From positions 10,151,501 through 10,215,500 of the forward strand of contig CM075765.1 in NCBI GenBank assembly GCA_037974665.1: a stretch of DNA of 64,000 nt, read 5' to 3'. The position numbers and the translations under genes were made by a program. Within the stretch, counting starts at the first letter, position 1, and the number at the start of each line of letters is the position of its first letter. A model generated the notes under the pieces. The model was not told where the DNA came from and made no database searches. It saw only the letters and a list, made by a program, of their open reading frames with translations. The stretch is from Ehretia macrophylla. Lineage: Eukaryota > Streptophyta > Magnoliopsida > Boraginales > Ehretiaceae. This document shows, one piece after another, positions 5,751 to 62,100 of the stretch.

Positions 5751-7896
5751 TATCACACCTCAGCCCGGACTCGTTGCCAAGACAAGGCCTGAACATGACA
5801 TGAACAGGATAGATAACCTGTACAATCATCAATCATAACCTAACAATTATAAATTTCACAAGTAACTTCATGAGGGGTGCCCAAAACTAAGGGCACTTTA
5901 CTTTCATTAACTTGTTTCATATATATACAAGGCCTAAATCCAACCCTCAGGCATGCAACAACCTCAATGGCTTCTATGCCTCAGAAGAATAGACTAGTAA
6001 TAAGGTTACAATCCATCGTTTAGAAGTTAGTTACACAACCAAATCCAAAAGAATACTACAGTACATGAAGTTGTTCAATCTTGACATGGTTAACAACATC
6101 CAAAATAGTATTAACAACCAGTATGATCACAACAAGCAGAAGTCCGACTCGTCACACAAGTAGGTCTCGCTTTCAGCTTGAGTCTCAGGCTCAGGCTCAG
6201 CCTCACCTAAAAGATTGTCATGAAAGCGATGAACTACACTTAGCTCAACGAGGGTTAATAGTCTCGGATGGTTTTCGCAAGCATTTCAACATTTGAAAAC
6301 CCTTTCTTGAAAACACGATATGCATAAGTGCAATTGAGTACAAGAAATAATAAACAAGTAATAACACATCACTCTACCCTCCGAGGTCCTCAAAGGCCCA
6401 AGAGAAGGTAGGTTTACCATAAATCAAAGGATACAGTTTCCTTTGCAATTGCTGTAGACGGCCGGCTTTGAATCAATTTTCATCCATTTTCCCCAACTCC
6501 AAACATTAGGTGATATCCGGATAATCACTGAGGACCATGGTAGTCGAGACTGACTAGTAGCCCGATGCTACCCAGAGGAAACGAACGCCACCATACCCAT
6601 AATTGTGGTTGCAACTGCCTCGCCAACAGTTATTAACATTATAAGCAATATACATATGCATCAAGCAAGAATAGAGGAAGTAACAAAGTAGGTTACCTCC
6701 GTCATAGCAGTAATATCCAAGTACAACAGATATTCACATAAGCAATCGTATGTATACAACATTTGATGAGCCACATGGAAATATTATATCATAACCAAAG
6801 AGAAGTAATGAAAAACCATAATTAGATCCTACTATGATAAACTAGGGTTCGATACGATTCTAATTCCACCAACCATGCCCCATTCGGACATCTATAGCTC
6901 ACGAAATCACTAAAACAAGTTCATTGTCCGAAGTTGTCAAACCGGTAGACCCTAGAGCCACCGGTCGACTGGTGCTACAAGGGTCATCCGGTGAAGAGGT
7001 TTTGGGTGGACGAGGCTCCTCTATAGGTCGACTGGTGGAGCAAGGGTCCACCGGTCATGCCAATTCAAAGAAAAACATGAATTTTTCCCTATGTTCCCTA
7101 TCTTGCTACATTTCTTCCCGCCTTCTACCAACCATCAAGCAAGCTCAAGATGATCTATTAGACACCATACAAGGGTTCAAAGCTCCACCAAAACACCTCA
7201 CATCAACAATCAATCCTTAACTAACCAAGGACCTAACATAGCTGAAATACAAGACATAGGCTCACATTCTTGCTAGAACAAATTCAATATACTTATATAC
7301 ACAGAAATCAAGTTCAATATACAAGTATATCCACAAACCATGCTCAATGTATCTTTGCAAAGCATTTGAGAAAACAACACTCACCTCAACAATGCAAGCA
7401 AATGATGATTCAGGGTTGTAAGATGCAAGCAAGAGCTCGAAAATGGTTAGAAATGGCTGGACAAAGCTTATTCTCCTATTTTTTCTTCTTTTTTCTTCTT
7501 CTTCTTTTTCTTCTTCTCTCCCTCTCTTTTCCCTTTCTTGGTCGAGTAAATGGGTGTGTGTGTGTTGTGTTTTGTTTTGTGTATGTATTTGTTAGGTGAA
7601 CAAATATCAAGAGGGGCAAATGACAAGAGTGCCATCAACTAAGACATATATTGTCAGTTTGCCATTCTGGTTGAATTGCAACTAATTAGTTACTACTCTT
7701 GACCTATTGGAATACAATTAATGCCTACGACACGTAAAACTTCCTAATGCACGTAATTGAACATTTTGGCACGTAAAACGATAAGTGTGCAAGTTAATTA
7801 ATATTAATGCACGAAATTGAAGCTAATGCATATGAAATGATATAAATGCATTATTAATAGTGTAATCACGCATAGGTTCTCGTGCTGAGTTTTACA
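5751..7896 (-). repeat. E1 5' LTR (2146 bp)
   Basis: The complete right LTR. It is bounded on the left by the primer site and on the right by TTTACA at 7896, matching the left LTR end at 900. A TATA-like stretch (CTTGTATATATATG on the element strand, 5918-5931) is identical to one in the E2 LTRs. Short blocks shared with other Tekay LTRs occur at about 6225-6255 and 6674-6700. The immediate right flank is GGGGT (7897-7901), the predicted target duplication whose partner lies outside the window. Confidence 0.88.
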
Positions 7897-9528
7897 GGGG
7901 TACTCTAGATATACCCCGATCCTATGACCCATAATCTCCCGAGATAGGTCCTTATGCCCCAACGAAGTGAACCACGCCTCTGGGGTAGGGGAGTATGCCT
8001 CAGCGAGATAAGGATTGGGAAACCATGGTAGTCGAGGGAGCACAGCAAGCCCGACGCCGCCCGTGTTACTCGACGCTACCATGCCCGAATAGGTTACGCA
8101 ACCCCGAATCAAGTTCACGAGAGCTAAGATTTCCAAATAACACATAAGAGAGATGACAAAGTAGGATGCCCTCGTATTTAACCACAATATACACAAAGTA
8201 ACGATATAAACATGAAAGAGACAAATGACATATTTTTCCACAAACTCTTCAATTAGCACAATTATATCTTAGACAAGCATATAAACACATCACAATACAT
8301 CTACAAGCTCTTATAAGCACAAATATCTATCACTTTTCCCCTTTCTTTAACTATGTTATTCTTCTTCGATATGAAATTCAAGGCTCCAAAACTACAATCC
8401 AATCATTCTACATTCCTAAAGAAGCCAAATGACACCTACCAAGGCCCCAAAAGTCCGCTTTGGAGACAAGATCTCGGGAAGCCCCTAAGTGGGTTTTAAC
8501 TATACCAACCTTATCCGGACCCCAATTTAACGCAACGAAAGCACCAAAAGTGCTTCCATGTCCCCAAGAATACCTAATCTAAAGCCCAAATGTGCCCGGA
8601 TTACGTTTCGTGGAAAACCCCCTTTTAAAAGTTAGCTAATTTTGCATTTTAACTCAAATTCGGGCAATTCAACTCCACGGGAGCTTCTAACGTATTTCAC
8701 TAATGTCAAGAGCACCTAAAAGAAGCATCAATTTACTCTAAATAGCAAGTTATAGCAAAACCCTAAAAATTCGTCACTATTCATCATCTCTTTTGTGATT
8801 CAAGCTTTCAACCATGGAACTTGCTATCAAACTACACAAACATGGTCTATAGATCATAATAAACATGTATATCACAATATATATGCATATCAATAGCTAT
8901 AAACAACAAATCATCAAATCTCAAAAAGTTGACAAAACTTTAACATGTATTTAAATGCAAATTCCCTCACAATTTGTAGGTGTAGGCTAGTTGTAGATAT
9001 CCTAAAAGCTCTAAGAAATCCTCAAGATCAAGCCAAGAGTCCAAATTTGCAAAGCTTGAAGTTGAAATCATTTTCTTCTTCTCCTAGAGGCCATCGGGTT
9101 TGGGGGGGGAGGGCTTATTGGGCATTTTCTAATTTGTTTTGTATGTATGTTGTTTGCAAATGTGTGGTAGTATGTATATAGCATATGTATGAGCAAGTAT
9201 TTTAAGTCTAATATTAGTATGTTTTAGTCAAACTAAGTTAAAAATTCAAACTAAAAGACATTTCTAGTATTTTACTATTCAACAAAGCACGAATCATTTT
9301 CCTAACGCGTATTCCCGACCTCCAAAGCTCAAAATCACAAGTTCCCGATCTCTTTTATAAGTTATACTATCTAAGAAAAATATTAAACCAAGCAATTTAG
9401 ACAGTAAATTTTCTTATGAATAGTGACCATCAAGTAAACATATTTAAACTAGAAATAAAACACATTAAAATGCACAAAAGATATGCTACAGTTATTGATG
9501 ACTATGATACAAATTCTCGGGCGTCACA
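7897..9528 (-). repeat. Right part of an older Tekay LTR, interrupted by E1
   Basis: Bases 7897-9528 align with about 26990-28663 of the E2 left LTR. They share the block with GCAAGCCCGA(C/T)GCCGCCC (8044-8062), the ACAAAGTAGG block (8155-8175) and the terminal TTCTCGGGCGTCACA (ending 9528). No polypurine-tract-like sequence follows the end, so this is the outer edge of an LTR. The missing first approximately 790 bp should lie left of E1. Solo LTR or full element cannot be told from this window. Confidence 0.85.
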
Positions 9529-14805: not shown

Positions 14806-14817
14806 TGGTATCAAAAG
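14806..14817 (+). promoter_or_regulatory. Copia primer binding site
   Basis: TGGTATCAAAAG immediately follows the 5' LTR with no gap. It resembles the initiator methionine tRNA complement TGGTATCAGAGC, the usual Copia primer. Confidence 0.8.
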
Positions 14818-23656: not shown

Positions 23657-26197
23657 TGTAACGCCCCGATCCCTCACGAGACCGGAGGCTCTAATAACCA
23701 TACTATTTTCAACCCAATTCCAACCCGGTCTCAAAATTTTAAGGGAAAAACGGACAAAGTCTCCCATGTTATGGACATTTTGAAAACCTGTAAGCATTCA
23801 ATAAGCTATAAAGTAACAATAAAGCAATTTCCAAAATAAAGATCCCAACTTTAAGGTCTTCCGAGCCTTAAGACATACAAACAATTTAGATACACACAAG
23901 CATGCATTCACAATATATTTTCTTTACAAAACCGCTTATCATGCCACTCTATGATAGCCTTTAAACATTCTTAGGAATTGAAAACAACCTTACATCCTAA
24001 CATTCACACTCAAGCATGCAAAGTAGCTAGAAGTAGAAACATAAGTTATTACATGTCATAGTTCTATGCCTTCTACCATAATCATCTAGTATTCAGCTTA
24101 CAACCACACAACATGTACATAAGCACTTAGGCTACAAAATAGGACATAAAGTAGAGCAAACAAGGTCCCCACATTACAACAAGAACCATAAATCCACCTC
24201 AACCAACTAGACACTGCAACTACGGTAGTTGATCAGTCTGGACCTCCTGTTCTTCACCCTCTACCAAATCTAGCTGGGGTTCAACCTCAGCGTCTCCTAA
24301 AACATATTAGCGAGGTATGAGAAACCACTATTGCCCAGTGAGGGATAAAGACTACCCGGGACTTGCAATGCAACAGTTATAGCAATTAAACAAGAAGACA
24401 AGTAAAGTACATTTGAAACAGTAGATAACCACACATATCAAAAGATACGATACACTTAACCCCAACACTCCATAATTCTCTAACTTCGATCACGAACCAC
24501 GAGCCACAAACCACGATCCATATGCCGACAAATCCCCAATCACTCCAGTGGGTGTACTCCGGATGTACCCCGATAATCCTACAACCCAACACCCCCTGGC
24601 AATCTCCGGACCAGGCGAGTAAGGGACTAGGGCACGGAGATCGAATATCCACTGGCAAGCCTTCTGCCGCCCAGCCGATATTCAATACAACCGCCCCTGA
24701 CACTATGGTTGTGCAACCACTATGCAATGCACTTATCAATGGCAATATAACAATAACAATAGAAGTAATAACACATGGGAGAAACAACAAAGTAGGTTAT
24801 CCTCGAAACAGTTAGAAAAGAAGCAATTTCATATAACAATTAAGCAAATTACAAAGGGGCATAATCAAGATTCACATAGAACTATACCAAAAGCTCCAAA
24901 ACATCTTGAAACCACATTTAAACACACAAGGAGTCATGTCAAGGTCTTAGAAGCGTGAGATAATCAAAATTGTACTTAAACCCCTTTGTAACTCAACCCA
25001 TTTTCCTTCCAAACTCATGTTACGGTTCTAGATTCGTAAGTGGTTTATTCCATGCTCTTAGTTAACCCCTTAGGTACCCTTAGGACCCTCAAAGTCACCT
25101 AATTACCCGTATTTAGCCTGAAAGTCCTAATTTTTCTCTTTTGACTTTGTACTACACGTACCTCACCCGGGACCCAAACAGAAACTAGCAAAGCATAACT
25201 AGAGTCTACTTATCCTAGGAATACCAAAAGTGAAGGCCCATTCAACCCGGATTCGCAATAACCCCAAAACCCCTTTCTAAAAGTCAGTTATTTCATGCTT
25301 TTGATAGGTTATGAGAAATTAAACCCTACGGGGCCTTTACACTACTTTCATTAGCACCTAAAGCATCTATTATAACCATTAATTCAAGCTATAAGGTCCG
25401 ATTATGCAAAACCCTAGTTTTCCCGTCACTATTCATGCCATACGATCAACAAGTAATTTCAACCGTTTAAACTATGAAACAATAACATAAATTAGGTCTC
25501 TACTATTTATATACAACATACATAAGCATATTTAAGCATTACATAAGCATTTGATAGCAAATCTAAGAATTCAAGAAAGTTGTCACATTTTTCAAATGCA
25601 AAAATAGGTATGAAATCCCTCACCTATTGCGCATAGTAGCTCCTAGGAGGCTAGTAAACACCCTAAACCACTTGCACCTAGCTTGGCTTGGCTTGGAATG
25701 AGGATTTGTTGAGCAAAAATCTCTCATTCTCCTCCTATGCTGATTTTCGGCCTTGCTACAGTATTTTCAGCATTGCTCTCTTATTATTATTATTTTTTTA
25801 TGAGCTTGTTATGTGTATGTTGAGCAATATAAAGGGTGGGGTCAAGTTGGGTACACATATTGACTATTAAAAAGAGTTTAGCTAGCTAGAAACAAGTCCT
25901 AATTGTGCAATTAATGTTAGCTAATTAAAACACCTAGTTTAGTTACGTAACACTATTCACTAGTTTGCTAAAACATTTTCTAAACGAAGGCTCCTAATGC
26001 ATTTAGCTCAAACGCACATTTTTCTCATTCCTAAAACAATTAATATGATTTAAGAAAAATGCAAATTCAAGATAGTTAAGTAGTTGAAAAACGGAATATA
26101 TTGTAACCACATAAAGTAACAAGTAAAACACATAATAAATGTACAAATAGTGGATGCAACAGTGGCTTAAAGTACGGCTAAAATCTCGGGCGTCACA
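23657..26197 (-). repeat. Solo LTR A (Tekay-like, 2541 bp)
   Basis: Begins TGTAACGCCCCGATCCC and ends CGGGCGTCACA. The 5-bp flank TACTC (23652-23656) recurs at 36149-36153, on the far side of the nested element E2, so both target duplication copies are present. No internal retrotransposon sequence accompanies it, hence a solo LTR produced by LTR-LTR recombination (inference). It holds the shared Tekay LTR blocks at about 24316-24343, 24651-24673 and 24781-24805, in the same orientation as E2. Confidence 0.9.
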
Positions 26198-26200: not shown

Positions 26201-28663
26201 TGTAACGCCCCGAACCCAACCCCACGCTAATAGTCAGGCTCGGACCCGTCACTCGGACAGAGTCTCCTCTGTACCAAGGACAAAACTGATACCTGTAAAC
26301 ATTCATTCGAGACATCTGAACTAAAAGCAACAACTTATCAACAATAACTCCAAAGCCAAAGCACAATCACAAGGCCATCCGAGCCTTGGAGTAACAATAT
26401 TCTACTAAAGCACACAAGCATGCGAGATAAGTTGGTTTTAGTCATAAGTAATTAAATACAATAAAATTCTAAGTTCCATATGAAGATTAACAAACACTCC
26501 AAGCATGCAAGGGAAATTAAAGTCTAGAATTCATTATTACAATCCAACAACTTTCTTTAACATCTTAGTACACATCTACTAGACATATATATACAAGACT
26601 CCAAAGTCTCAAAATACATTAATAACAAGAACTCCACGCAAGAAGCACATAAAATCCACCTCAGCACACAAGATCACTGATTCTGATCTACTTGAACTTC
26701 TTCCTCTTCTTCTACTTCTAATAGCTGGGGATTCACCTCAGCTTCTCCTGAAACATTTTAAATGAGGAGTGAGCAACAAAGTTGCCCAGCGAGGGAGGTG
26801 ATGCAGCATGCCAACGTGCAATATGATATGCAACACAAGTACACATATACAAGCCACATAAACTATCAAGACAATAAATCAAACTATTAATCACTTTAAA
26901 AAGGATACGGTTCCACTTCCAAGACTTCATCCACGAGCCACGATCCACGAGTATCACGAATATGCCGGCAAACCCCAAACACCACAATTGGGATACTCCG
27001 GATGTATCCCGATCCTACGACCCTTTCTCCCGAGGTAGGTCCATGCCCAGCAGGTGAACCACGCCTCTGGGGTAGTGGAGTATGCCTTAGCGAGAAAGGG
27101 AATAGGCACCATGGTAGTCGAGGGAGCACGGCAAGCCCGATGCCGCCCGTGTTTCTCGACGCTACCATGTCCGATATAGGTTGTGCAACCCAATGCAAGT
27201 CACAAACAATCAATATATCGCATAACACGTAAGAGGGACGACAAAGTAGGCCGCCCTCACATATATGCACGATAAAAGTTCATATATGCACGATATTAAC
27301 TAATAGATGCCAAAAGAAGCAATCAACACAATTAATTCCAATAATCTACTCAAATAACTTAAATAGATCCTAAATATTCAATGCAAAGCATTACTAACAC
27401 ACAACAAGTTCCAATTGCAACTAAAAAGGCTAAAAACTACTTTTCCCCTTTCTTTAACCGAGTTTTCTTTCTCCTAAGCATGGTTCGAGATTCCCAATCA
27501 TACCCTAGTCTTTCTATATTCCTAATTAAGCTCAAAGGTACCCTTTAAAGTCACTAAAACTCATTTTTGAAGCGAAAGTTCGGGAAGGCCCCGAACGGGT
27601 TTGAACTATAGCCATACTAACCGAACCCCAATTTCGCGAAACGAAAGCACCAAATGTGCTTCCTTAGCTCAAGGATACCCAAATCGATGCCCAAATTTGC
27701 CCGGATTGCCTAACGTGCAAAACCCCCTTTTTAAAGTAAGCTATTTATGCACTAAAGTTCAAATTCGAGTGATTCAACCTAACGTGGCTTTTCAATTACC
27801 TTCCCTAGGGTCTAGAGCACCTAATTGAGGCATCAATTCAAGCCAATTAGCAAATTTTCTCAAAACCCTAGTTTTAGGCACTATTCATCATCTCTTTGAT
27901 CAAATTCAACATTCAACCATTAAATTTGTTATCACACCACAAAAGTTAGCTCTATAGACATTAAATAACTCATAGGAAGCATTCATAACAAGTTATATAG
28001 CTATAGTTGACAAATCAAGAAAATTGAACATATGCACATAAACTTTAAACTCAAGAAAATGAGACTCTCTCACAATTTTTGAAGATGGAGAAGTTTGTTG
28101 AAGATCCTAAGTTGCTCAAAACCCTCCCAAGCTCAATCTAAGAGCTCAAAGTGCAAGATTGAAGAAGCAAAAAACCTCTTTTTCCCTCCTTGAAGTGGAC
28201 GGCCAAGGCTTAGGACAAGGATGGAATTTTTGCAATTGTTTTGTTGACAAGAATAAGCTTATGTTTTAATTTAATAAGTTGGCTAATATTATATGTGGTG
28301 CATGACTAGATAATGTAAGCTAATTAGTCTCTAATCTTGATCAACTAATGGCTAATTGAAATTCCAAATGCTTTTAATTTAATACTAGCATTATTCTAAC
28401 GTAACACTATTCAAAGCTTACGGAAAATATTTTTCAAACGCATACTCCTAAGCTCGAAAGTTCGAAACGAAAATTTCTTGGTTCCTTTTAAATGTCGAGT
28501 GACCTAGGAAAAATTTAAAATCAAGCTTTTGAAACAGTCGAAAATATTATGAATAGTAACCCACAACAAAAACAATTAAACAAGAAAAATGATGCACGTA
28601 GAAATGCGCACATAAGTATGCAACGATTATAATAAATTTAGGGTGAAATTCTCGGGTGTCACA
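26201..28663 (-). repeat. E2 3' LTR (2463 bp)
   Basis: TGTAACGCCCCGAACCC to GGTGTCACA. A TATA-like CATATATATACAAG (26584-26597) is shared with E1. A conserved higher-GC block at about 26990-27195 contains an imperfect inverted repeat (CATGGTAGTCGAG near 27110 and CTCGACGCTACCATG near 27156-27170) around GGCAAGCCCGATGCCGCCCG. A second block, GTGAGCAACAAAGTTGCCCAGCGAGGG, lies at 26769-26795. Confidence 0.96.
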
Positions 28664-33684: not shown

Positions 33685-36146
33685 TGTAACGCCCCGAACC
33701 CAACCCCACGCTAATAGTCAGGCTCGGACCCGTCACTCGGACAGAGTCTCCTCTATACCAAGGACAAAACTGATACCTGTAAACATTCATTCGAGACATC
33801 TGAACTAAAAGCAACAACTTATCAACAATAACTCCAAAGCCAAAGCACACTCACAAGGCCATCCGAGCCTTGGAGCAACAATATTCTACTAAAGCACACA
33901 AGCATGCGAGATAATTTGGTTTTAGTCATAAGTAATTAAATACAATAAAATTCTAAGTTCCATATGAAGATTTACAAACACTCCAAGCATGCAAGGGAAA
34001 TTAAGTCTAGAATTCATTATTACAATCCAACAACTTTCTTTGACATCCTAATACACATTTACTAGACATATATATACAAGACTCTAAAGTCTCAAAATAC
34101 ATTAATAACAAGAACTCCACGTAAGAAGCACATAAAATCCACCTCAGCACACAAGATCACTGATTCTGATCTACTTGAACTTCTTCCTCTTCTTCTACTT
34201 CTAATAGCTGGGGATTCACCTCAGCTTCTCCTGAAACATTTTAAATGAGGAGTGAGCAACAAAGTTGCCCAGCGAGGGAGGTGATGCAGCATGCCAACGT
34301 GCAATATGATATGCAACACAAGTACACATATACAAGCCACATAAACTATCAAGACAATAAATCAAACTATTAATCACTTTAAAAAGGATACGGTTCCACT
34401 TCCAAGACTTCATCCACGAGCCACGATCCACGAGTATCACGAATATGCCGGCAAACCCCAAACACCACAATTGGGATACTCCGGATGTATCCCGATCCTA
34501 CGACCCTTTCTCCCGAGGTAGGTCCATGCCCAGCAGGTGAACCACGCCTCTGGGGTAGTGGAGTATGCCTCAGCGAGAAAGGGAATAGGCACTATGGTAG
34601 TCGATGGAGCACGGCAAGCCCGATGCCGCCCGTGTTTCTCGACGCTACCATGTCCGATATAGGTTGCGCAACCCAATACAAGTCACAAACAATCAATATA
34701 TCACATAACACGTAAGAGGGACGACAAAGTAGGCCGCCCTCACATATATGCACGATAAAAGTTCATATATGCACGATATTAACTAATAGATGCCAAAATA
34801 AGCAATCAACACAATTAATTCCAATAATCTACTCAAATAACTTAAATAGATCCTAAATATTCAATGCAAAGCATTACTAACACACAACAAGTTCCAATTG
34901 CAACTAAAAAGGCTAAAAACTACTTTTTCCCTTTCTTTAACCGAGCTTTCTTTCTCCTAAGCATGGTTCGAGATTCCCAATCATACCCTACTCTTTCTAT
35001 CTTCCTACTTAAGCTCAAAGGTACCCTTTAAAGTCACTAAAACTCATTTTTGAAGCAAAAGTTCGGGAAGGCCCCGAACGGGTTTGAACTATAGCCATAC
35101 TAACCGAACCCCAATTTCGCGAAATGAAAGCACCAAAGGTGCTTCCTTAGCTCAAGGATATCCAAATCGATGCCCAAATTTTCCCGGATTGCCTAACGTG
35201 CAAAACCCCCTTTTTAAAGTAAGCTATTTATGCACTAAAGTTCAAATTCGAGTGATTCAACCTAACGTGGCTTTTCAATTACCTTCCCTAGGGTCTAGAG
35301 CACCTAATTGAGGCATCAATTCAAGCCAATTAGCAAATTTTCTCAAAACCCTAGTTTTAGGCACTATTCATCATCTCTTTGATCAAATTCAACATTCAAC
35401 CATTAAATTTGTTATCACACCACAAAAGTTAGCTCTATAGACATTAAATAACTCATAGGAAGCATTCATAACAAGTTATATAGCTATAGTTGACAAATCA
35501 AGAAAATTAAACATATGCACATAAACTTTAAACTCAAGAAAATGAGACTCCCTCACAATTTTGAAGATGGAGAAGCTTTGTTGAAGATCCTAAGTTGCTC
35601 AAAACCCTCCCAAGATCAATCTAAGAGCTCAAAGTGCAAGATTGAAGAAGAAAAAATCCTCTTTTTCCCTCCTTGAAGTGGACGGCCAAGGCTTAGGACA
35701 AGGATGGAATTTTTGCAATTGTTTCGTTGACAAGAATAAGCTTATGTTTTAATTTAATAAGTTGGCTAATATTATATGTGGTGCATGACTAGATAATGTA
35801 AGCTAATTAGTCTCTAATCTTGATCAACTAATGGCTAATTGAAATTCCAGATGCTTTTAATTTAATACTAGCACTATTCTAACGTAACACTATTCAAAGC
35901 TTACGGAAAATATTTTTCAAACGCATACTCCTAAGCTCGAAAGTTCAAAACGAAAATTTCTTGGTTCCTTTTAAATGTCGAGTGACCTAGGAAAAATTTA
36001 AAATCAAGCTTTCGAAACAGTCGAAAATATTATGAATAGTAACCCACCACAAAAACAATTAAACAAGAAAAATGATGCACGTAGAAATGCACACATAAGT
36101 ATGCAACAATTATAATAAATTTAGGGTAAAATTCTCGGGTGTCACA
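33685..36146 (-). repeat. E2 5' LTR (2462 bp)
   Basis: Pairs with 26201-28663 over its whole length with about 1.8% difference by eye. The same TATA-like 14-mer is at 34067-34080 and the same conserved blocks at 34251-34278, 34612-34631 and 34709-34742. Confidence 0.96.
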
Positions 36147-38040
36147 CATACTCTATTCTAATGTTGAAAAAAAAATTAATATAAATTTTGGCATTTTGCA
36201 AGGTCTTTTTTGTCACGACCCCAATTTTTTAATCACTAATGCAGTATCTGACACCATAATAAAACCACCAACATGCCTGGGATCGTGATGCCATGGGCTT
36301 AAAAAGATCGCTCCGCCTAAGTCTGCTAAGGCACAATTGTAATAGCCCGAGCATTATTAACCAAAATTCAAAATTTCAAGACTATTAAATAATTATTTAC
36401 CAATTACTAATTTCTAAATTTCAAAATTCCAATTACATTAGTCGGGGAACTAAATCTGATTATGGCCTAAGATTCACTTATCACTTATGATTCAATTAAC
36501 AAGTAACAAATTCCTAGTCTTTCAGATCGAGTGTGATAGTTGATTCAATTACTGATCCATACTTAGTCAAATTTTCAACCTATTCATGGTTTTCTCGAAA
36601 ATCGGGCAGCACAACGGCTGTATTTTGAGCTAAACAGTTTTATCATGCAAGTAGAAAAAAGCCACAACCACAGCTCCAAATCCTTCACTGCAGCTCCTCA
36701 ACCCTAACTTCCAACAACATAATAGAATTCACCCAAAACATATTAAAATGACATCTAATTCCAAAGTAAAGCATATATCATTTGTACAACCAAAAACTTA
36801 TATATAATTACGACATCTAACTATTACATTAATTCAAGTACCACATATTATACCAACTTCATCACTAGTAATTAAAGTCACGAACATATTTTCCCTTAGC
36901 AGAAGATCATCACATATTGTACTCCGTCTCACCTACACTTGAAAGGGGGAAACAAATAGGGTGAGCTTATTCGACACCAAAGCTCAGCGAGGAGGGAATC
37001 TAGGAAGGGGTTTCGAATACATTTTCCTATTTACAAATCATTAGAAAACTCTGAATGCAATGCACGCCATATCTGCAATCAAGTAACAATCAAGTATCCA
37101 TATACAAGTCATATAACATATACTAAGTAAGAAATAACTTACTCTTTCGAATCGAATCGATTTCAAACGGTAACTGGTTGTCTGAGATGTTCAATATCTC
37201 TTTTCTTATCTCACCCAATAGAGTATTCCGGATAATACTTGAACCTTCGGCCCGATTCTCTGAGGAAATTAAGGTTCCCAAGCGAGAGGGGAATACAAAT
37301 CATAGTAGACATATGATCACCGGCAAGCCTTATGTCGCCCGGCATGGTATACACACTACCATGCCAAAATTAGGTGGTTGAAACCCCTTTTAAACACCAA
37401 TTTATATCCAAGTTCATGAAAAACTAGCAATATCGCAATCACGTTGGCATCGAGTGCACAACTAGCACATATTTGTACATGTAATGCATATCGGTAAATC
37501 AACAAGTAAACAAGCAATATACTTCATATTAAAGATTCCACAATTACCCTAACACATCTAGAGGTTGTATAATAACATTACACATTAGTAAATCTAGTAA
37601 CTTAGCCATTTACTCAATAGCAACTACATTAGTACTTAACAATTTAGCCTAAGACAATGTCTATACCACTACAATAGCCCAACTTTAACAAATCAGTTGT
37701 CGACCTTCCCCGAACTCCAAATTACTCGATTTATGTATAGAATTAAAGCTCTTCGAGTGTAGATAACTCCAGAATCAAGCAGAACTCAATTTCGATTTAA
37801 GTTGACTGACTTATAACTCAATTAGTGCAACTATGTTTGACTGTCCATAATGCAAGCTATTCTTGCGTCCTTTTGGAAATGGAAAATTCATAGTATTAAA
37901 GCGATGGAATATGACGTTTTGTAAAACATGAAGTTTGTTCCTAATTTCCTAATATAACTATTGTGAAAATTTCATTCGATTCTGAGATCGTTTACTATTT
38001 TTAAAATGCAAAATACCTCAAGATCAGTAGTATGTCCAGT

Positions 38041-40333
38041 TGTCACGCCCCGAACCGACCCCGCAAAAGGCCAAGCCCGAACCTGACACACGGACGGAGT
38101 CTCCTCTGTACCGTGGACGATCCGAAACCCTACATTCAATATAATACTTGCGAATTCCATAATAAACATTTGAAACAAGCCAACTTTCTTTTAAAACATA
38201 CATCTTCTTATTAACCAACTTGCAATCCAAAATGCCATGCATACTACACAAATATTTATGCCACTAAACAGTTAACCATTGGTATGCAATTCTTTATTAG
38301 TCATAAGAGTATAACTTTACAACTTTACAATCTTTAAACCTTTACAACAAAAGACATAAAGGCCTCAAAATAGAACTACATACAAGGCTACAAGCCTCAA
38401 AATAAAGCGACAACCAAGCATTAAACACATCAAGTATAGCTCGCACAAAAGTCTGGCAACCAACCACTAGCTAAGCAAAGAAGTGCTATCAAGGAAACAC
38501 CTCCACTTGCTCCTCCTCCTCAATTACCTCAAGAGGATCAGCTTCAACTACTCCTGTAAAAATATGGTATAGAAATGAATGAGCAAAAACTATTGCTCAG
38601 CGAGGGCAAATGGTCTCAAGGACGGAGATGAGAGGAGAATACAATGCAAATAGCCAAGCAATTCATTCAATTATCATATAGAAATACAAACAACGCCAAC
38701 AATAAACAAGACAAGCATTAAAATTGTAAACACTCATTCAAAGGATACGATTCACTTTCCACGAACAACTTTCAATCACGAATTCGATGACGACGCGCCG
38801 GCCCAAACCACCTTATAACTTCAGTTTGGAATACCCCGGAAGTATCCATCAATTCTACGACCCAAATCTCCTTGGGAGGCAACCCAAGCGAGAAAGGGAA
38901 TAGGACACGGAGCTAGGGCAACCAACACTGGCAACCCGAGGCTACCCAGAAAGGCCCATCACACCGCCCTTGGCTCTATGAATGCAATACAATATACAAT
39001 GCAACAATCGAGCAATCAAGCAATAGAGCCACACGTGGGAGAATAAAAAAGTAGGTTACTCTCGCACGCAATAGCAACAATTGATAAACATTTCAATTAG
39101 AATCAACTCTAACAAGCATAATAAGCAGTAACAAGCATTCTACAAGCAAAATTCTATGAAAACCAACAAAAACACAAAACGACCCCAACTTACCAAACGC
39201 TACTACTTTCAAACGAGCCACGAGTTTTGGAAACCGACTTCACCAATCCTCCTAGGTCACCATAAGGCACGTCTAAAGACCCCGAAACCCTACTTTACCC
39301 TAGAATTCACACAAAGCCCCGATTTCCCCATTTGCTCGTTTGAACTACCGCTACCCTAACCAAACACCCAACCAACGCCATAACCACACCAAAAGTGTTT
39401 TCATGGCCTCCCGAGACAATGCCATCACGCAAAACGAGAAAATGCTAAACTCGACCTAAATGACCCCGACTTTCACAATGCATTTTTCTCTTTTTTTCCA
39501 TTACAAAATCCAAACAAAACATGCATTTAGGCATTCTAGCATATCTAGCATCTTTTCACATCAACAGAACGCATAACGGAACAACTTCTACGTTTCGAGG
39601 GTTTACTATTCATATTTTACTATTCAATTGACACTTTAAATTACAATAGCTATATTTAACCGTAGAAAATGCTAAAAAGCTATAAATACATGTTCTACAA
39701 TAGTCAAGGAACATTCTTTAAGCATTAAAATAATTAAACTAACGATCTACGCATAAAATCCAAAAATCAAAGTTTGTGAACCAAATATTCAAATGCGCAA
39801 ATAAACGTGCTTCCCACACCTTAGACACTCCTAGTCGCTAGGAAAACCACGCTGGATGCCTCGGTAACAACCCCGTGCAAGCTTACGCGAAGATTGGAAG
39901 TTTTGAAAGTTGAAATGTTTTTTTTTTCTCTTCAAAGTTTCGGCCAGCTCAAGGGACTGTTTTTGTGCTTGTTTTTTATTTTATTTTGTTATGTTATAAC
40001 TATTAAAAGATGACAAGCTTGGTCAAAGGTCAAGCCCCTTGGTCAACCTAACTTAATTTGGTCAATTTAGCCTATTTTCATGCATTTTAAAGCTAAAATA
40101 ACTAGTGCAATATTAATTCTAGCTAACAACAACTAAAACACTAAAATTAAAACACTAAACACTAGTTTTCACTATTTGTTGAGGACTAGAAAACACCCTC
40201 TAACTATCGCTCTCGAAATGCAATGCACTTTGCGACAGTAAAGAAGTAACAATTAGATTCCAAGGAATTTAAGAAAACATAATTTTCAGAATAATAAACA
40301 AGAAAATTCCACATTCCGGGCTCGGGTATTACA
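38041..40333 (-). repeat. E3 3' LTR (2293 bp)
   Basis: TGTCACGCCCCGAACC to CGGGTATTACA. Shared Tekay blocks: GACGGAGTCTCCTCTGTACC (about 38093-38112), GAGCAAAAACTATTGCTCAG then CGAGGG (38581-38606), and AAAGTAGGTTACTCTCG (about 39048-39064). Confidence 0.95.
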
Positions 40334-45219: not shown

Positions 45220-47512
45220 TGTCACGCCCCGACCCGACCCCGCAAAAGGCCAAGCCCGGACCCGACACACGGACGGAGTCTCCTCTGTACCGTGGACGAT
45301 CCGAAACCCTACATTCAATATAATACTTGCGAATTCCATAATAAACATTTGAAACAAGCCAACTTTCTTTTAAAACATACATCTTCTTATTAACCAACTT
45401 GCAATCCAAAATGCCATGCATACTACACAAGTATTTATGCCACTAAACAGTTAACCATTGGTATGCAATTCTTTACTAGTCATAAGAGTATAACTTTACA
45501 ACTTTACAATCTTTAAACCTTTACAACAAAAGACCATAAAGGCCTCAAAATAGAACTACATACAAGGCTACAAGCCTCAAAATAAAGCGACGACCAAGCA
45601 TTAAACACATCAAGCATGGCTCGCACAAAAGTCTGGCAACCAACCACCAGCTAAGCAAAGAAGTGCTATCAAGGAAACACCTCCACTTGCTCCTCCTCCT
45701 CAATTACCTCGAGAGGATCAGCTTCAACTACTCCTATAAAAATATGGTATAGAAAGGAATGAGAAAAAACTATTGCTCAGCGAGGGTTTTTGGTCTCAAG
45801 GACGGAGATGAGAGGAGAATGCAATGCAAATAGCCAAGCAATTCATTCAATTATCATATAGAAATACAAACAACGCCAACAATAAACAAGACAAGCATTA
45901 AGACTGTAAACACTCATTCAAAGGATACGATTCACTTTCCACGAACAACTTTCAATCATGAATTCGATGACGACGCGCCGGCCCAAACCACCTTATAACT
46001 TCAGTTTGGAATACCCTGGAAGTATCCATCAATTCTAAGACCCAAATCTCCTTGGGAGGCAACCCAAGCGAGAAAGGGAATAGGACACGGAGCTAGGGCA
46101 ACCAACACTGGCAACCCGAGGCTACCCAGAGAGGCCCATCACACCGCCCCTGACTCTATGAATGCAATATAATATACAATGCAACAATCGAGCAATCAAG
46201 CAATAGAGCCACACGTGGGAGAATAACAAAGTAGGTTACTCTCGCACGCAATAGCAACAATTGATAAACATTTCAATCAAAATCAACTCTAACAAGCATA
46301 ATAAGCATTAACAAGCATTCTACAAGCAAAATTCTATGAAAACCAACAAAAACACAAAACGACCCCAACTTACCAAACGCTACTACTTTCAAACGAGCCA
46401 CGAGTTTTGGAAACCGACTTCACCAATCCTTTAGGTCACCATAAGGCACGTCTAAAGACCCCGAAACCCTACTTTACCCTAGAATTTACGCAAAGCCCCG
46501 ATTTCCCCCTTTGCTCGTTTGAACTACCGCTACCCTAACCAAACACCCAACCAACGCCATAACCACACCAAAAGTGCTTCCATGGCCTCCCGAGACAATG
46601 CCATCACGCAAAACGAGAAAACGCTAAACTCGACCTAAATGATCCCGACTTTCACCAATGCATTTTTCTCATTTTTTCCATTACACAATCCAAACAAAAC
46701 ATGCATTTAGGCATACTAGCATATCTAGCATCTTTTCACATCAACAGAACGCATAACGAAACAACTTCTACGTTTCGAGGGTTTACTATTTATATTTTAC
46801 TATTCAATTGACACTTTAAATTACAATAACTATATTTAACCGTAGAAAATGCTAAAAAGCTATAAATACATGTTCTACAATAGTCAAGGAACATTCTTTA
46901 AGCATTAAAACAATTAAACTAATGATCTACGCATAAAATCCAAAAATCAAAGTTTGTGAACCAAATATTCAAATGCGCAAATAAACGTGCTTCCCTCACC
47001 TTAGACACTCCTAGTCGCTAGGAAAACTACGCTGGATGCCTCGGTAACAACCCCGTGCAAGCTTACGCGAAGATTGGAAGTTTTGAAAGTTGAAATGTAT
47101 TTTTTTTTCTCTTCAAAGTTTCGGCCAGCTCAAGGGACTGTTTTTGGGCTTGTTTTTTTTTTATTTTGTTATGTTATAACTATTAAAAGATGACAAGGTT
47201 GGTTAAAGGTCAAGCCCCTTGGTCAACCTAACTTAATTTGGTCAATTTAGCCTATTTTCATGCATTTTAAAGCTAAAATAACTAGTGCAATATTAATTCT
47301 AGCTAACAACAACTAAAACACTAAAATTAAAACACTAAACACTAGTTTTCACTATTTGTTGAGGACTAGAAAACACCCTATAACTATTGCTCTCGAAATG
47401 CAATGCACTTGCGACAGTAAAGAAGTAACAATTAGATTCCAAGGAATTTAAGAAAACATAATTTTCAGAATAATAAACAAGAAAATTCCACATTCCGGGC
47501 TCGGGTATTACA
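45220..47512 (-). repeat. E3 5' LTR (2293 bp)
   Basis: Same length and ends as the left LTR, with the same conserved blocks (45759-45786 and about 46216-46246). Followed by target duplication CCAGT. Confidence 0.95.
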
Positions 47513-48958
47513 CCAGTAGCAGCAAAATTTCCAAAACCTATTGTTTTAAGTGTTTTCGAGCATGAAAACAATTTGTTCTCAGATGTTTTCCAACAGAATA
47601 AATGTTCCTCTATGAGTCTACTACAACATAGATTTTTTTCCAAGTTTTTCTTAAAAAATTTAATCATGCAATCGGACCAACACTTTTGATGGCACATAAC
47701 TGTCCAAAAACGTTATTTTACAAGTCATTCATGATCTAGCTTCAATGTCATCAAGAACAACTACTATACATCTTAGCAACCTCTAGCAACTTGAATAAAC
47801 ATCAAACAAGCATATTTTCATAGGTAGGTACAATTATCTTCATCCAAGAAGCTTCAAACTTCCAAGATGATAACTTTAGTTCAAATCATCCACAATCAAG
47901 ATTCCAACAAATTTAATCCATGGAATAGCTAGGATATCAACAATCAAACTCCAAAATCCATATATATGCATTTATATCTCAAAAATACAAGTTTTTGAAG
48001 AATCCCTCACCTTGAAGTTTGGTTGAAAATGCCTAAATCACCTTGCAAATGTCTTAGAATCACTTGACTAGCTTGATTATCACCTTAGTTGTTGTTGATG
48101 TTCATAAAATTTTGCAAGACAAGAGCTCAAATTTCCTCTCTTTCTCTCCTATGGTGGACGGACAAAGCTTGGAGAAGAAGAAGATGAAATATCGTCTTTA
48201 TCTTGCCTTGGAAGCTTGGTCAAACTATTGCCTAATTGCAATTTGACCCCAATTGTTTTTCTACTTTGCAAAATAACCCCCATTTTCCCTACCCTTGGTC
48301 ATGGGGTCCCTCTTGTAATTAGGAAATACTTAAGTTCTAGTTATAATTGAAATCTTGGTCCCTAAGTTTTACTTTAGGTATTTGCAATTTAGCCCCTAAA
48401 GTTTGTAAATTTTGTTAATCGACCCCTCGTGTTTTCTAAAATTTTAAAGTTTCTCTGTTTCTTTTTCTAACTTGCCCGGGGTGTTCCTTGTACGATTTAA
48501 GATACTCGATATCTAGTTTAAAACGCCAAACTTGGTGCCCAAGTATTAGTTTCCATAATTGTAATTTGACCCCAAAAGTTACAAAGTCTTCATTTTTTAC
48601 CCTAAATCTTTAAAGGACTTTTGTTCTTGATTTTTTTTCTTCTAATTTCTTATAGTCTTGGGGTTCTAATGGGATTTTGGGAAAGTTAATTCTAGATTTA
48701 AGGTAATTAATTGGTGTCCGAGTGTAATTTAGTTAATTATACTTTGGCCCCTAAGTTTTCTAATATTTGTAAAGTTACCCTGAAGTTACTATACTTAGTT
48801 CCTGTTCTTCTAACTTATTTCCTAGCCTATTACCATTGTATCTAACAAGCATTTAGGGTTTAGAAGAATTTAATATATATATTATACACATAACATGGAA
48901 TTACACTTAACTACACAGTGAAATAGTAATGCATATGCATTTGGATCAGGGTCTCACA

Positions 48959-49173: not shown

Positions 49174-51375
49174 TGTCACGCCCAAACCCGGTCCCTTCAG
49201 AAACCAAGCCCGGTCGCGACGGCACACATATATTATAACGCCTGTAATATGAAAAACCAACACAACAATGAATACACAACATATATTCTCAAAGGTTCGT
49301 GTCATTCATATACAATATTTCATCACATCTCTTGCGAAATACACGAAACATTCATTCATTCGCTTCGGAAAAGTAGACAACATCCTCTACAAAGTTAAAG
49401 CATACTTGAACATAAACATATGACAAGATATAAGACTAGTTAGTTGTGATCATGATTCAACATGACCAACCATATAGATACATCAAAACAAGTTACGCTT
49501 CACAATACTTCAAATTAGCCAAGTACTACACCGTACATTAACAACTACTAAAGTAAGTAAAACATAGTTTCAAAGTTAAGTACATCAACTACTCATGAAC
49601 TACATGATCAAACTCATTAATTCCTTCCTCTCGCACATAATCAACATCATGAACACTTGTAACATGCATTAAAGAGGAGTGAGCTAAACAGGCTCAGTGA
49701 GGAAGAGATATAAGAAAGTTTGAAAACTTTAACCTGAAAACCTTTTGAAGCACATTAGAAACAACATATTACATTTGTAACCACGTACTCACATTTGCTT
49801 AACAACCTTGAAACATTCACGCTAAACAACACATTAAAAGGTTACCGCTTTAGAACACTTGTTGAAGCCGATACTTATAACTCTGCCATGAACTCAACAC
49901 TTCTCTCTACCGCTCGTGCACTCATGATGTGCACGAATCTACGACCAATCTCACCATGGCCATCACTGACCACACAAGAGAAAAGACTAGTACATAATAG
50001 TCATGCAATTACCGATAAGCTGTATGTCGCCCAGCACGACATGATACTACCATAACGGATTAAGGTTGTAACCCGACACTTCACATAACATCTCATAACA
50101 CATTCATTACTCAGCAACACATTCATTACTCAACAACACATTTATTACTCAACAACACATTCATTACTCAACAACTAACCTTCAATAAAACATATATCCA
50201 ACACATTAATACCAACATTTAACTATCAAAGAACATGATCACTACAACACACTAACACCACCTAAGCTTCATAAGAACATGATCTCAACACATTAACATC
50301 ACTTAAGTTTCATAAGAACATGATATTTACAGATTAACACTAATTAAACCTTAAAAGAACATGATCTCTACAAATTAACTCCAACTTTTTGACATCATTT
50401 AACCATTTTATGAATCTCTACAACACATAACCTCAACATAACCAATATAGTAACCAGCTAAAATGCATTATGAACCCATTACAATAGCAAAACCGAGCAT
50501 GAAACAAGCCAAACAAGCCAATCTCTACATTTGTACATTGGTTGGAATTTTAAGAAATTCATCAAAATAAACCCCTAAATTCACCAGATTCACACCAAAG
50601 CCATGAAATCATACCCAATCACATATATATAATCACAAACACCAAAGCCATCTTAAATTCTCAACTTCCAATTAACAAAGTTAGGTATATAACACCTATT
50701 TTGCATCGAACAAGTTCTAATGCATATATAAAGCTCTCAAATCACTACTACAACATATATTCATCATCAATTAGTATTTATATCACATATATATGATATT
50801 CCACGAATTAAAGTAAGCAAATAACATACAGGAACTTGAAACCCTCACCTAAAATTGTGGAAAAAGGCTAGAAATGGCAAGAACTAACTATGGAGAACAA
50901 ACTTAGGCTATTTCCACTTTGATTTGGCTTAAAATTGCAAGAATTCTTCAAAAAAAATCAAAACCTTGTTTTTTCTATTGTTCTTCTTTTTTCTTCATTT
51001 ACTTGATTTTTCCTAGGCCTTTCTAGTATTTCTTTTGTTTGTTATGTTATATTGTATGCATATGTATGTATTATAATGCAAGATGGTCAACTTAGTCAAG
51101 CAAGACACCTAAGGCTAAGTCAAACATGGTCAAGGTTGGTTGGCTTTGTAAAATAAGCTTATATTTGTATGTATATATGTATGTATTATATAATTAAGAG
51201 TAAAACAAGTCAAATATGGTAGAATTAGTAAAATAAGACTATATTTATATGTATAAATGTAATTTAAATGCAAATATGATGTATTAAAATAGATAAACAC
51301 ATAATTAACACATAATACTTTCAAATAATATTTAAAGTAAATAAATGCACATAAAATGCATGCTCGGGTCTCATA
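49174..51375 (-). repeat. Solo LTR B (Tekay-like, about 2.2 kb)
   Basis: Begins TGTCACGCCCAAACCC and ends CGGGTCTCATA. It is flanked by GTTTT on both sides (49169-49173 and 51376-51380), which places the right end after TCATA. The E5 LTR starts with the same bases on the other strand (TATGAGACC at 59600), supporting this unusual terminus. It carries the GAGC...GGCTCAGTGAGGAAG block (49678-49706) and AAGCTGTATGTCGCCCAGC (about 50017-50035). A tandem run of ACATTCATTACTCAACAAC units lies at about 50100-50175. No internal sequence is adjacent. Confidence 0.85.
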
Positions 51376-57040: not shown

Positions 57041-57721
57041 GGCTCCATTTGTTTGCCGTAAAATATTCTTCCGGAAAACATTTTTCTACTTTTACGGTGT
57101 TTGGTAACACCGAAAATTTGGTCAACCGGAAAATATTTTACAGTAAAAAATGGTGGGCTACTTTTGAAGATTTTCCGGTGTTTGGTAACACCGGAAAATT
57201 GGTCAACCGGAAAACATTTTCCGGTCAAAAATGGTAGGCTACTTTTTAGAGATTTTTCGCTGTTTGGTAACACCGGAAAATTGGTCAACTAAAAAATGTT
57301 TTCCGGTCAAAATTGACGGCTAGTTCGAAATTTGGGAAAATATTTTCATTTCTTTGGGAGATGAAAACATTTTCCAGAACTTAACCACCCTTATTTTATG
57401 TGTATTTTTTTTTTTTATAAATCTCATGTCGAAAAATATTTTTTATTGTACATCCAAACACTAGAAAATATTTTCCAGTATTTTATTTTCTAGGAAAATA
57501 TTTTCCTCTAACAAGTTATTTTACGGCAAACAAACGGAGCTCAGGAAAATATTTTCCTCTGAAAACATTTTCGAAGAAAACATTTTCCACTGAAAACATT
57601 TTACACAAGAAAATTATTTTACGATAAACAAACGAAGGAAAATATTTTATTTTCCAAGAAAATATTTTTCACTGAAAATATTTTTCACAACTAAGTTATT
57701 TTACGGCAAACAAACGGAGCC
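57041..57721. mobile_element. 681-bp non-autonomous TIR element (MITE-like) inside the Tat fragment
   Basis: Terminal inverted repeats run GGCTCCATTTGTTTGCCGTA (57041-57060) and TACGGCAAACAAACGGAGCC (57702-57721), with one mismatch over 20 bp. Flanking CAA is present on both sides (57038-57040 and 57722-57724), a 3-bp target duplication. The Tat sequence resumes directly on the far side, so this is an insertion. Inside are three approximately 80-bp units sharing GTGTTTGGTAACACCG (near 57100, 57179, 57260) and many TTTTCC/GGAAAA inversions. The 3-bp duplication and GG-start fit a PIF/Harbinger (Tourist-like) origin, though CAA departs from the usual TWA. No transposase. Confidence 0.85.
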
Positions 57722-59599: not shown

Positions 59600-62100
59600 T
59601 ATGAGACCTGAGTCTTGAATTATGTGTTTCCACTTGCTTTATATGATATTTGAATAAATATATGTGCAATTACATGTTTATTTGACTTTTACGTGCAAAT
59701 TACGTGTTTATTTGACTCTTATGTGTAAAAATTATGTGTTTATTTAATTTAGCACCTAATATGTGCAATAATATGATTTACATAGGTTTACTAGTTCAAA
59801 AGTGCATTTGAAATTCGTTTGATTTGCTAATTGTTGTCTTTTCATTTTCTTTGACCACGTAGGATTAAAATTGCATATGCTAGTTAAAAATAATTCCTAA
59901 GTTAGTCTGTAATCACCTTAGACATTTGCTAGCTTGTTAAAATTGAAATTAAAAGCAAACTAAAAGGCTAACTTAGTCATTTGGACTTTATATTTTCCAT
60001 TGACCTTCCTTTGACCTCTTTGACTCTTACTTAAGCCTTTTATATCACAAAAACAAAGCAAAACACCCCACAAAAAGCTTGGTTCAGTCGTGAGAGGATA
60101 GAAGAAATAAGGGCTTGAGTGAATAATGAAAATTAGTAATTTTAAGCAATTTAGGAGCAATTAGAAGCCAATTGGAGCGAAATGAAGCTTGTTCTTGACT
60201 CGTCTTAGTATGTTCTAGATTTTTACCAATTTATTTTGTCTTTATTTTGCAAAAAAGGTGAGGGGATTTTTACAAAATTGAGTTTTAAAGTTAAGTTTTT
60301 GGTTATATAATTGCTTATATATGTTGTTTATGCCTGTATATGTTTATGATTCATGCTAGATAAGTTATTTAGTGCACTTTAGTTGAATTTTAGTTAGATG
60401 GATTTATAAGTGTTGTACGAAGTGTTAAATGGCTAGAATTGAGTGAAAACTTGTTGTATAACATGTTGTTGAAGTCTACCTACGTTGTGGATTAGTTTAA
60501 TATTGCTTAATGGCTTGAATGGTAGGAGTTGAGGGGTGTTGGCCGGCTGGTTGTTCATGGGTTTGGGGGCTTTTGGATTATATCCACGATGTTTTAAGTG
60601 TATGCTATGTTAGTTAGTTGCTAAATGGTAGAATGAGTATGGTTTAGTTGTTTAATTGTGTGCAATATTGAGAAAGGTTTATGTAAATGTTGCTAAGTCG
60701 AATCTAATGTTGAATTGTATTTGTTGAATGCTATTTTGTTAATTGTGCAGCTATGCATAAATGTAGTGTCTAATGTGGTTGGAAATTAGTTGAAATATGA
60801 AGGGTATGCTATGCTAATTAATTGCTAAGTAGTGGTTTGAATGTTGCATGGTCATTTAATTGTGAGAGAAGTTGAAATAGTGTTGTTTCAATTGTTTTGT
60901 GTGGAAAATGTTGCTAAGGTTGAGTTGGCGTTAAGTGCGGTCGTATATGGTTATTGCATGAAAGTGTATGGTTGAGGTTGGATGGCTTACTTTGTTATCT
61001 AATCAATGTCTTCTAAGTAATGTTAAACTGTTGAATTACTAAGTGTTACCATGTTAAAGTGTTGAATTGTTCAAATGCATATTAATTGTTAAAGTGCTAA
61101 GTGTTGAAATGTTATATAAATATTGTGAAGCATGGTAGCGTCATGTTGATCTGGGCGGCATCGGGTTTGCCAGATAATACCACGTCTACCATGTTCTATC
61201 CCCTAACCCTTATAGACGGAGTTGGGGAATGTTCATAGGTTGTGGGTACTGCAAGGCATAGTAGCGTCACCCTATTCTATCCTCAATCTTCACGGACGGA
61301 ATGTGTCATGAAGTGTGGGTCTAGGGTTCGGTACTTCCGCAATGTATTCAATGTAGTGAAAATGAATCGGTTGAGAGTGAAGATAATGGTAAAATGAACG
61401 GCATTAACAAGTGACAAGGGTATCCTTTTGGAATATTTATATATTGTCTCAAATGCATGCTAATTGTTCATTGATGGTATATAGTTTAAGTGTACGTTTT
61501 TGAAAGTTTTTCAATGACAAAATATTTTCAAAACCTTCCTTTTATCCCCCCTTACTATGTTTGTCGAAACTCACCCCATTTCATGACCACAATACAGGTG
61601 TAGTTGAGATCAGGGATTAAAGTGATGGTTTTACTTGTCTTGCCTGTTGTCTATTGCCTTGGAGCCTTGTAGATTGAGTTGTTTTAAAGACTTTATTTCA
61701 AATATGTAAAGTGTATTAAATGCTTATCTGTTGCTTTAAAGTTGAAAGGTTTGAAGGACTTTATTGTAAATTCATAAGTTTACCTTTGGGCATGTATGCA
61801 TATTGCTTGCCTATAAGATCTATGTTGGATTATTGTACCTTTATGTCATTGTGTAAGGTAGCCTAGCCAAGTGAATTTGTAAAGTTGATGTATGTGTAGT
61901 GCCCAGTGGATGTACTGTTTGATTTTATTGTTGTTAAATGAAGTGTAGTGTTGTTGTATGTTGTTGAACTTGATTGACCAGGCTTGGTCTGGCCATAGTA
62001 CAGGGGAAACTCCGTCTATTTTTCCTTATTTTTCTTGCCTTGGGGATTGAATTGGGTTGTTATATCGAGACTTGATTCCACGAAGGATCAAGTCATTACA
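59600..62100 (+). repeat. E5 5' LTR (about 2.5 kb)
   Basis: The left end TATGAGACCTGAG matches, on the opposite strand, the right end of solo LTR B. The right end GTCATTACA (62100) is followed 2 bp later by the primer site. The preceding five bases are ATGAG (59595-59599), the predicted target duplication. It contains an imperfect inverted repeat (CATGGTAGCGTC near 61132 and ACGTCTACCATG near 61181) around the GGGCGGCATCGGGTTTGCC block. Confidence 0.8.

Follow-up and report, generated by a model that had tools for sequence, protein, structure and literature searches.

Why should long terminal repeats (LTRs) that share little else keep a handful of short blocks in a fixed order? The question is raised by a 64,000-nt stretch of the Ehretia macrophylla genome (contig CM075765.1, positions 10,151,501 to 10,215,500; G000:C2:10151501-10215500 in our numbering), below called the window, which is filled by nested LTR retrotransposons, three of them readable as elements (E1, E2, and E3). 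The answer that we put forward, tentatively and with somewhat less than even confidence, is that the blocks form a packaging and dimerization module within an intron of the LTR, through which splicing would sort each transcript into mRNA or genome, and that a single genome holds tens of thousands of copies of this arrangement.

The elements are of Ty3/gypsy type and putative chromoviruses, judged by a Gag and a pol in which reverse transcriptase precedes integrase; Tekay is the label of an earlier, sequence-only reading of the window. In pieces of E2, Retrotrans_gag, Ty3_capsid, RVT_1, and SH3_Tf2-1 score above cut-off, with reverse transcriptase upstream of integrase. The rve core falls below it (21.9 of 32.6 bits in E2; 30.8 in E3), and the chromodomain PF00385 is a weak match below its curated cut-off (E = 0.0012 in E2 and 0.00045 in E3). 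The minus strand carries the gag/pol frames, primer-binding site, and polypurine tract in E1, E2, and E3, so the plus-strand blocks of the earlier reading are antisense in these three elements, whose strand is readable. Its suggestion that the blocks are selected RNA structure was the right idea, applied to the wrong strand; among the functions it named were packaging and dimerization. The LTRs and primer-binding sites are as follows.

about 5750-7896, minus strand: E1 5' LTR (the remainder of E1 extends down to the window start)
33685..36148, minus strand: E2 5' LTR
26201-28664, minus strand: E2 3' LTR
45221..47514, minus strand: E3 5' LTR
38042-40335, minus strand: E3 3' LTR
5731, 33666, and 45200, minus strand: primer-binding sites (TGGTATCAGAGC-like) of E1, E2, and E3

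Conserved blocks in the LTR

Read in sense, the blocks follow one another along the LTR in the order d, p, c, e, b, with a near the LTR end. The sequence-only reading had listed a, b, c, and d, all of which are real; it had missed the shorter form of c carried by E1 and E3 and two additional conserved blocks brought out by a comparison of thirteen representatives, namely a GGTTGCGCAACC-like palindrome, p, that stands between d and c, and a hairpin, e, that stands between c and b and has the loop AUCCGGA. A predicted LTR intron encloses d, p, c, e, and b, a setting that had likewise gone unrecognized, and a lies outside it by position.

34716..34741, minus strand: block d hairpin, E2 5' LTR; stem with loop CCUACUUUG, used in the arm-swap test
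34662..34673, minus strand: block p, E2 5' LTR; palindrome GGTTGCGCAACC
34593..34652, minus strand: block c, E2 5' LTR; long interrupted hairpin around GGGCGGCATCGGGCTTGCC
34473..34493, minus strand: block e, E2 5' LTR; hairpin with palindromic loop AUCCGGA
34231..34277, minus strand: block b, E2 5' LTR; hairpin, branch-point-like CTCAC, pyrimidine-rich stretch, and 3' splice site
33744..33759, minus strand: block a, E2 5' LTR; short hairpin with GNRA-like loop (by eye), outside the intron
27110..27169, minus strand: block c, E2 3' LTR
26990..27010, minus strand: block e, E2 3' LTR
46096..46140, minus strand: block c variant, E3 5' LTR
38916..38960, minus strand: block c variant, E3 3' LTR
46217..46243, minus strand: block d, E3 5' LTR
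6537..6594, minus strand: block c variant, E1 5' LTR
6510..6528, minus strand: block e, E1; loop inside the 8-nt palindrome ATCCGGAT
6674..6699, minus strand: block d, E1
8024..8083, minus strand: block c, LTR fragment T
7897..7918, minus strand: block e, LTR fragment T; loop AUCUAGA (palindrome UCUAGA)
24643..24683, minus strand: block c, LTR F; different arms
24550..24571, minus strand: block e, LTR F
37302..37362, minus strand: block c, LTR G
49994..50053, minus strand: block c, LTR H
49915..49935, minus strand: block e, LTR H; loop AUCAUGA, a different palindrome
61131..61193, plus strand: block c, LTR M; opposite strand

The occurrences named earlier were recovered, except for a reversed block b near 54062, where none is present at up to 2 mismatches. 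Block a was found at 26256, 33740, 38093, and 45272 (0 to 2 mismatches) and reversed at 61997 (3 mismatches); block b at 6243, 24333, 26784, 34267, 36982, 38595, 45775, and 49692 (0 to 2 mismatches); block c at 8044, 24654, 27130, 34613, and 37322 (0 to 2 mismatches), at 50014 (4), and on the other strand at 61153 (1); and block d exactly at 6683, 8156, 24787, 27241, 34724, and 46226 and with 1 mismatch at 39046. One-mismatch matches to the d loop at 1410, 1481, 16450, 22897, 24134, 60479, and 60986 were not counted as members. The inverted repeat said to enclose block c (CATGGTAG and CTACCATG) was recovered, intact or degenerate, in E1, T, E2, G, H, and M; F and E3 lack it and have other arms instead.

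Conservation was measured by blastn in ten representatives (E1, E2, E3, F, G, H, M, L005, L006, and L163), with collinear matches counted per position against the nine others. Because exact LTR ends are available for only some of them, the segment taken from each began 1450 nt before the c core and ended 960 nt after it. Coverage was 0 to 0.3 of the nine over most of the stretch, peaked at 1.1 to 2.3 over d-p-c-e (from -100 to +150; 0.7 at -150), ran at 0.7 to 0.9 from +150 to the b region, and was 0.7 at +850, the place of block a. The blocks, in their fixed order, are thus conserved far more strongly than the remainder of the LTR, and the excess conservation that the sequence-only reading had anticipated is borne out.

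The module is also very abundant in the 1.58-Gb assembly of 20 contigs to which all genome-wide pattern counts refer. At up to 2 mismatches, the c core has 26,040 + 26,169 = 52,209 matches, far beyond chance (reversed pattern, 3 + 3); the E1/E3-type core has 9,231, a GAC-type core 984, and one form of the d hairpin 433, each with 0 in the reversed control. Stretches elsewhere that hold the bare core (12 in viral contigs and at least 120 in genome contigs) were provisionally taken as chance. The idea of a known RNA family was rejected, as Rfam gave no match at gathering score in the window and, over 34231-35000, one permissive match only (E = 0.063, 21.9 bits against 80).

Pairing and covariation of the stems

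The arms of the blocks were compared in an arm-swap test, in which the mean duplex energy of arms from the same family is set against that of arms from different families and P values come from permutation. Own-family arms paired better in all four hairpins: -23.96 against -18.41 for c (P = 1e-4, n = 10), -7.67 against -4.72 for e (P = 1.5e-4, n = 9), -8.22 against -5.93 for b (P = 0.0016, n = 9), and -7.80 against -6.05 for d (P = 0.004, n = 9). The e, b, and d tests did without LTR M, and the d test also without G and H, no such block having been found in them; the d set includes T, which is related to E2, and one form from the genome-wide search for the d hairpin. The gap of 5.6 kcal/mol for c compares with at most 3.0 in 40 shifted controls of the same geometry, two of which had a P value below 0.01 (one at -425 and one, close to b, at +425).

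The alignments point the same way. In that of c, 96% of cells are paired (86.6% in shuffles) with a covariation score of 0.362 (0.166 in shuffles), and in that of e, 81% (65%) with a score of 0.444 (0.185); none of 500 shuffles reaches the paired-cell or covariation values of either block. The inner helix of c shows hardly any variation. Sense arms pair more stably than antisense arms in c (-23.96 versus -18.66), b (-8.22 versus -5.99), and d (-7.80 versus -6.58, with an antisense P of 0.11). A census of G.U against A.C pairs (13 versus 0) is biased by registers picked by eye in sense, and duplex energies were therefore used instead.

The loop of e is self-complementary, with wobble allowed, in 11 of the 12 listed copies, the exception being the copy in the E3 5' LTR. 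In H, UCCGGA is replaced by UCAUGA, also a palindrome, a change that needs two transversions. These tests give good support for RNA pairing in d, c, e, and b, and the compensatory stem changes foreseen by the sequence-only reading are found both in the arm-swap energies and in the covariation scores. Its hairpin at b is there too, but appears to be at the same time the 3' end of an intron, with a branch-point-like CUCAC and a 3' splice site.

A predicted intron within the LTR

The predicted introns of the three elements (a slash marks each splice site) are as follows.

34231..35556, minus strand: LTR intron, E2 5' LTR; 1326 nt, donor AAAATT/GTGAGGG, acceptor TTTCAG/GAG
45734..46999, minus strand: LTR intron, E3 5' LTR; 1266 nt, donor CTAAG/GTGAGGG, acceptor TTTTTATAG/GAG
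6207..7384, minus strand: LTR intron, E1 5' LTR; donor TTGAG/GTGAGTG, acceptor TTTTAG/GTG, by analogy

In all three, block b holds CUCAC or a similar sequence, followed within 15 to 30 nt by TTTCAG/G or similar, and the upstream LTR holds the donor CTAAG/GTGAGGG or a variant of it; CTAAG/GTGAGGG occurs in other families too. The E2 donor is weak in the 5' LTR copy and was not found in its 3' LTR partner. Among 90 fetched loci, which end 1.5 kb upstream of the core so that donors further out score as misses, 67 have a donor-like site, 81 an acceptor-like site, and 61 both; in L005 no clear donor stands where one would be expected. As shown by the sequence tests, d, p, c, e, and b have their place in the 3' half of the predicted intron, through the branch-point and 3' splice-site region.

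Spliced joins were predicted from these sites first and then searched for genome-wide. The exact predicted join occurs at one place in family C2 and at two in family A, with 0 matches in the reversed controls; comparable intron-exon patterns gave at least 14,550 unspliced copies against the one join and at least 19,548 against the two. A looser join pattern with 10,152 matches was set aside as uninformative, lying within 2 mismatches of unspliced acceptors. The three intron-less copies fetched (L223, L224, and L225) miss exactly the intron. L223, 1365 bp long, is a solo LTR bounded by the 5-bp target duplication ATGGG; L225 is an LTR with CTGCC on both sides (by eye) that begins with TA instead of TG; and L224 looks like a 3' LTR, as it stands directly after a polypurine-like stretch. 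We regard as well supported that the LTR contains an intron of spliceosomal type, with exact removal in three copies of two families, both distinct from that of E2. Splicing of an LTR transcript followed by reverse transcription would be the natural account of these copies.

Some further observations were made around these sites. About 7 kb upstream of L224, on the same strand, lies an intron-keeping LTR (L227, G000:C5:72413200-72416400) that is 97.5% identical to the spliced L224 in exon 1; their flanks have no matching target duplication, so that membership in one insertion cannot be claimed. Many family A loci have, some 190 nt into the intron, another donor-like site, CGAG/GTAAGTTTA (at 308, sense, in L001). 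Directly after the 3' splice site, an acidic in-frame open reading frame runs to a stop (34157-34230, minus strand, in E2, for example, EAEVNPQLLEVEEEEEVQVDQNQ and a stop), and an acidic tail in the same phase is present in E1, E3, F, L001, L005 (SAEGEPQLVEVLVEEEEVQAEPLP and a stop), L007, and L025. Family C2 is without it. The tail may be coding, as the end of an upstream exon, or may act as a purine-rich enhancer of splicing. It was rejected as an extension of pol: joining the GTAAGA-like site at the end of pol to the acceptor gives immediate stops in E1, E2, and E3.

Possible roles of the module

The mechanism that we propose would work as follows. The LTR transcript would exist in two forms. 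The unspliced RNA would keep the module and serve as genomic RNA, whose dimerization would be started by kissing between the self-complementary e loops and perhaps also through p. For packaging, Gag or a host factor would recognize the stems c and d with their conserved unpaired letters. The spliced RNA would have lost the module, would escape packaging, and would be used for translation. With the intron placed within the LTR, copies made from unspliced RNA retain the whole system, and new copies must come from unspliced RNA or else the intron is lost. The ratio of spliced to unspliced copies (about 1 in 10,000) suggests that they do come from unspliced RNA, and a signal confined to the intron would secure this. 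By position the module would be confined to unspliced RNA, and it holds, besides hairpin e with its palindromic, self-complementary loop, another palindrome and two hairpins whose unpaired letters are conserved. Because these are the parts to be expected of such a signal, we favor packaging and dimerization, although that the module is the packaging and dimerization signal of the unspliced RNA seems to us evenly poised between true and false.

The same anatomy must be weighed against other accounts. A role confined to splicing, in which the hairpins, above all b, would keep splicing inefficient, letting sufficient unspliced RNA survive, and there would be no separate packaging role, is rather unlikely but the likeliest of the rivals. 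The module lies just upstream of the acceptor, b covaries, and the branch-point-like CUCAC is part of its 3' arm, with the 3' splice site coming next in E1, E2, and E3; splicing control leaves unexplained, however, why c and d conserve unpaired letters and why the e loop stays self-complementary through changes of sequence. The module might instead be an export or stability element that lets the unspliced genomic RNA leave the nucleus, a need that the LTR intron would itself create. The long stem of c with its asymmetric internal loops would suit such an element, and the IAP RTE and the MusD MTE are elements of this kind in retroelements (PMC12786077, cited here, like the other papers below, from excerpts). 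These two act through NXF1, however, and plants use TREX instead (PMC12786077), nor would export call for a palindromic loop; we consider this reading improbable. The roles in packaging, splicing control, and export may also overlap.

Two further accounts would remove the need for a spliced RNA or for an RNA structure. The three intron-less LTRs could be chance deletions and the splice-like sequences could have another role: there are only three such copies, and the junction is ambiguous over 3 nt (AGG). Yet the joins were predicted before the search and were found exactly at the predicted sites in two families, and with 0 to 30 extra bases allowed at the junction, both family A joins proved exact, while C2 gave one exact join and one match whose 31 printed letters are unlike the LTR; chance deletion is therefore very improbable. 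Conservation of the blocks as coding exons could draw on the acidic in-frame tail with its stop after the 3' splice site in several families. That tail lies outside the module, however, and is absent in C2, similarity across the c-e region shows, among the matches listed, in several frames of both strands, and the stems covary. Coding was rejected for c-e, and as an explanation of the blocks we find it scarcely credible.

A number of points weigh against the packaging and dimerization reading itself. On the side of the pairing, an arm's own partner is its single best one in only 5 of 10 cases for c, 4 of 9 for e, and 5 of 9 for b. The c alignment, which is without E1 and E3 and in which several rows represent one family, has three pairs changed on both sides, a number reached by 146 of 500 shuffles. 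Block e pairs slightly better in antisense (-8.09 versus -7.67 in sense), and the UCUAGA that replaces UCCGGA in T could have arisen by CpG decay on both strands. Nor were the blocks found everywhere: no e, b, or d was found in LTR M and no d in G and H, and of the 90 loci, 59 have the loop TCCGG[AG] and 58 the d loop where these are expected. On the side of the intron, the E3 join has 0 copies genome-wide, and the join patterns represent one form of exon 1, so that the spliced count is a lower bound from which other subfamilies may be missing. Few spliced copies would also be expected if splicing were rare, if spliced RNA went to translation, or if strand transfer required matching ends. Block b overlaps the branch point, which fits splicing control equally well. 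Finally, we infer packaging and dimerization from anatomy, and the comparison covers one genome.

Other features of the window

E1, E2, and E3 have two features in common in the interval that separates pol from the polypurine tract: a hairpin, AATTGCG-(T/A)GGA-CGCAATT, beside the tract and a donor-like GTAAGA.

900-945, 28665-28704, and 40336-40374, minus strand: pol-polypurine tract interval with GTAAGA and the hairpin

At 7896/7897, the start of E1 coincides exactly with the edge of hairpin e in LTR fragment T; E1 seems to split the LTR of T, the remainder of which would be found beyond the window start. The window also holds a Ty1/copia-like element, recognized by eye, at 14220-19511 (plus strand), with direct repeats at 14220-14805 and 18942-19511 and several open frames; an AT-rich tandem array of units of about 180 to 200 bp at 21813-22674; and, at 57090-57328, a roughly 81-bp unit in three tandem copies, which contain inverted repeats such as CCGGTGTTTGGTAACACCGG.

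Comparison with known systems

In retroviral leaders, the packaging signal (psi) and dimerization initiation site (DIS) combine a hairpin with a self-complementary loop and other conserved hairpins, which are removed by splicing and kept in unspliced RNA. The hairpins of the module would likewise be lost on splicing and kept in the unspliced transcript. The candidate signal differs in lying within an LTR intron of a plant Ty3/gypsy element.

Among LTR retrotransposons, a parallel in RNA structure is the 5' TIPIRT domain of Ty1, which has a packaging role and a kissing-loop dimerization model, palindromes also having been proposed (PMC5454406). It resembles the module as a 5' RNA structure with such a model. 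In the Ty1 model, however, the complementary motifs belong to two different stem-loops, and the excerpts of that paper mention no LTR intron. BARE1, also a plant LTR retrotransposon with splicing and separate RNA pools, has a spliced intron of 104 nt that directly follows the gag coding domain and is not in the LTR; its pools differ by promoter, cap, and poly(A), and its spliced RNA must escape replication (PMC3735527). According to the excerpts of a 2025 review, plant LTR retrotransposons are generally without introns, Ogre and EVADE being exceptions and BARE1 also being mentioned (PMC12786077), and a spliced env-like RNA is predicted for BAGY2 and Athila (PMC2829016). Ogre, EVADE, BAGY2, and Athila are thus plant LTR retrotransposons with introns, as here, but their introns, as these excerpts describe them, serve subgenomic coding RNAs. 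Sireviruses have conserved palindromic LTR motifs, repeated DNA dyads upstream of the TATA box (PMC2829016). They share with the present LTRs the conserved palindromes, but they are Ty1/copia elements, and neither an intron nor a covarying RNA module is mentioned in the excerpts. Modelling of LTRs failed for those of plant Ty3/gypsy elements because of length variation (PMC3601003), and the excerpts of PMC6911290 hold nothing on an arrangement like the one described here.

A partial survey of the literature brought up no natural intron within an LTR, engineered lentiviral vectors aside. To our knowledge, the separation of mRNA and genomic RNA in plant LTR retrotransposons is largely open, and we know of little on the packaging signals of plant Ty3/gypsy elements. 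An LTR intron around a covarying module would offer a precise test site for RNA sorting in a very abundant group of repeats, and the module would explain why only a few short blocks are kept in such long LTRs. If the proposed reading is true, the intron-less LTRs are a natural record of failed sorting, and a genome/mRNA switch like that of retroviruses is located in a plant LTR.

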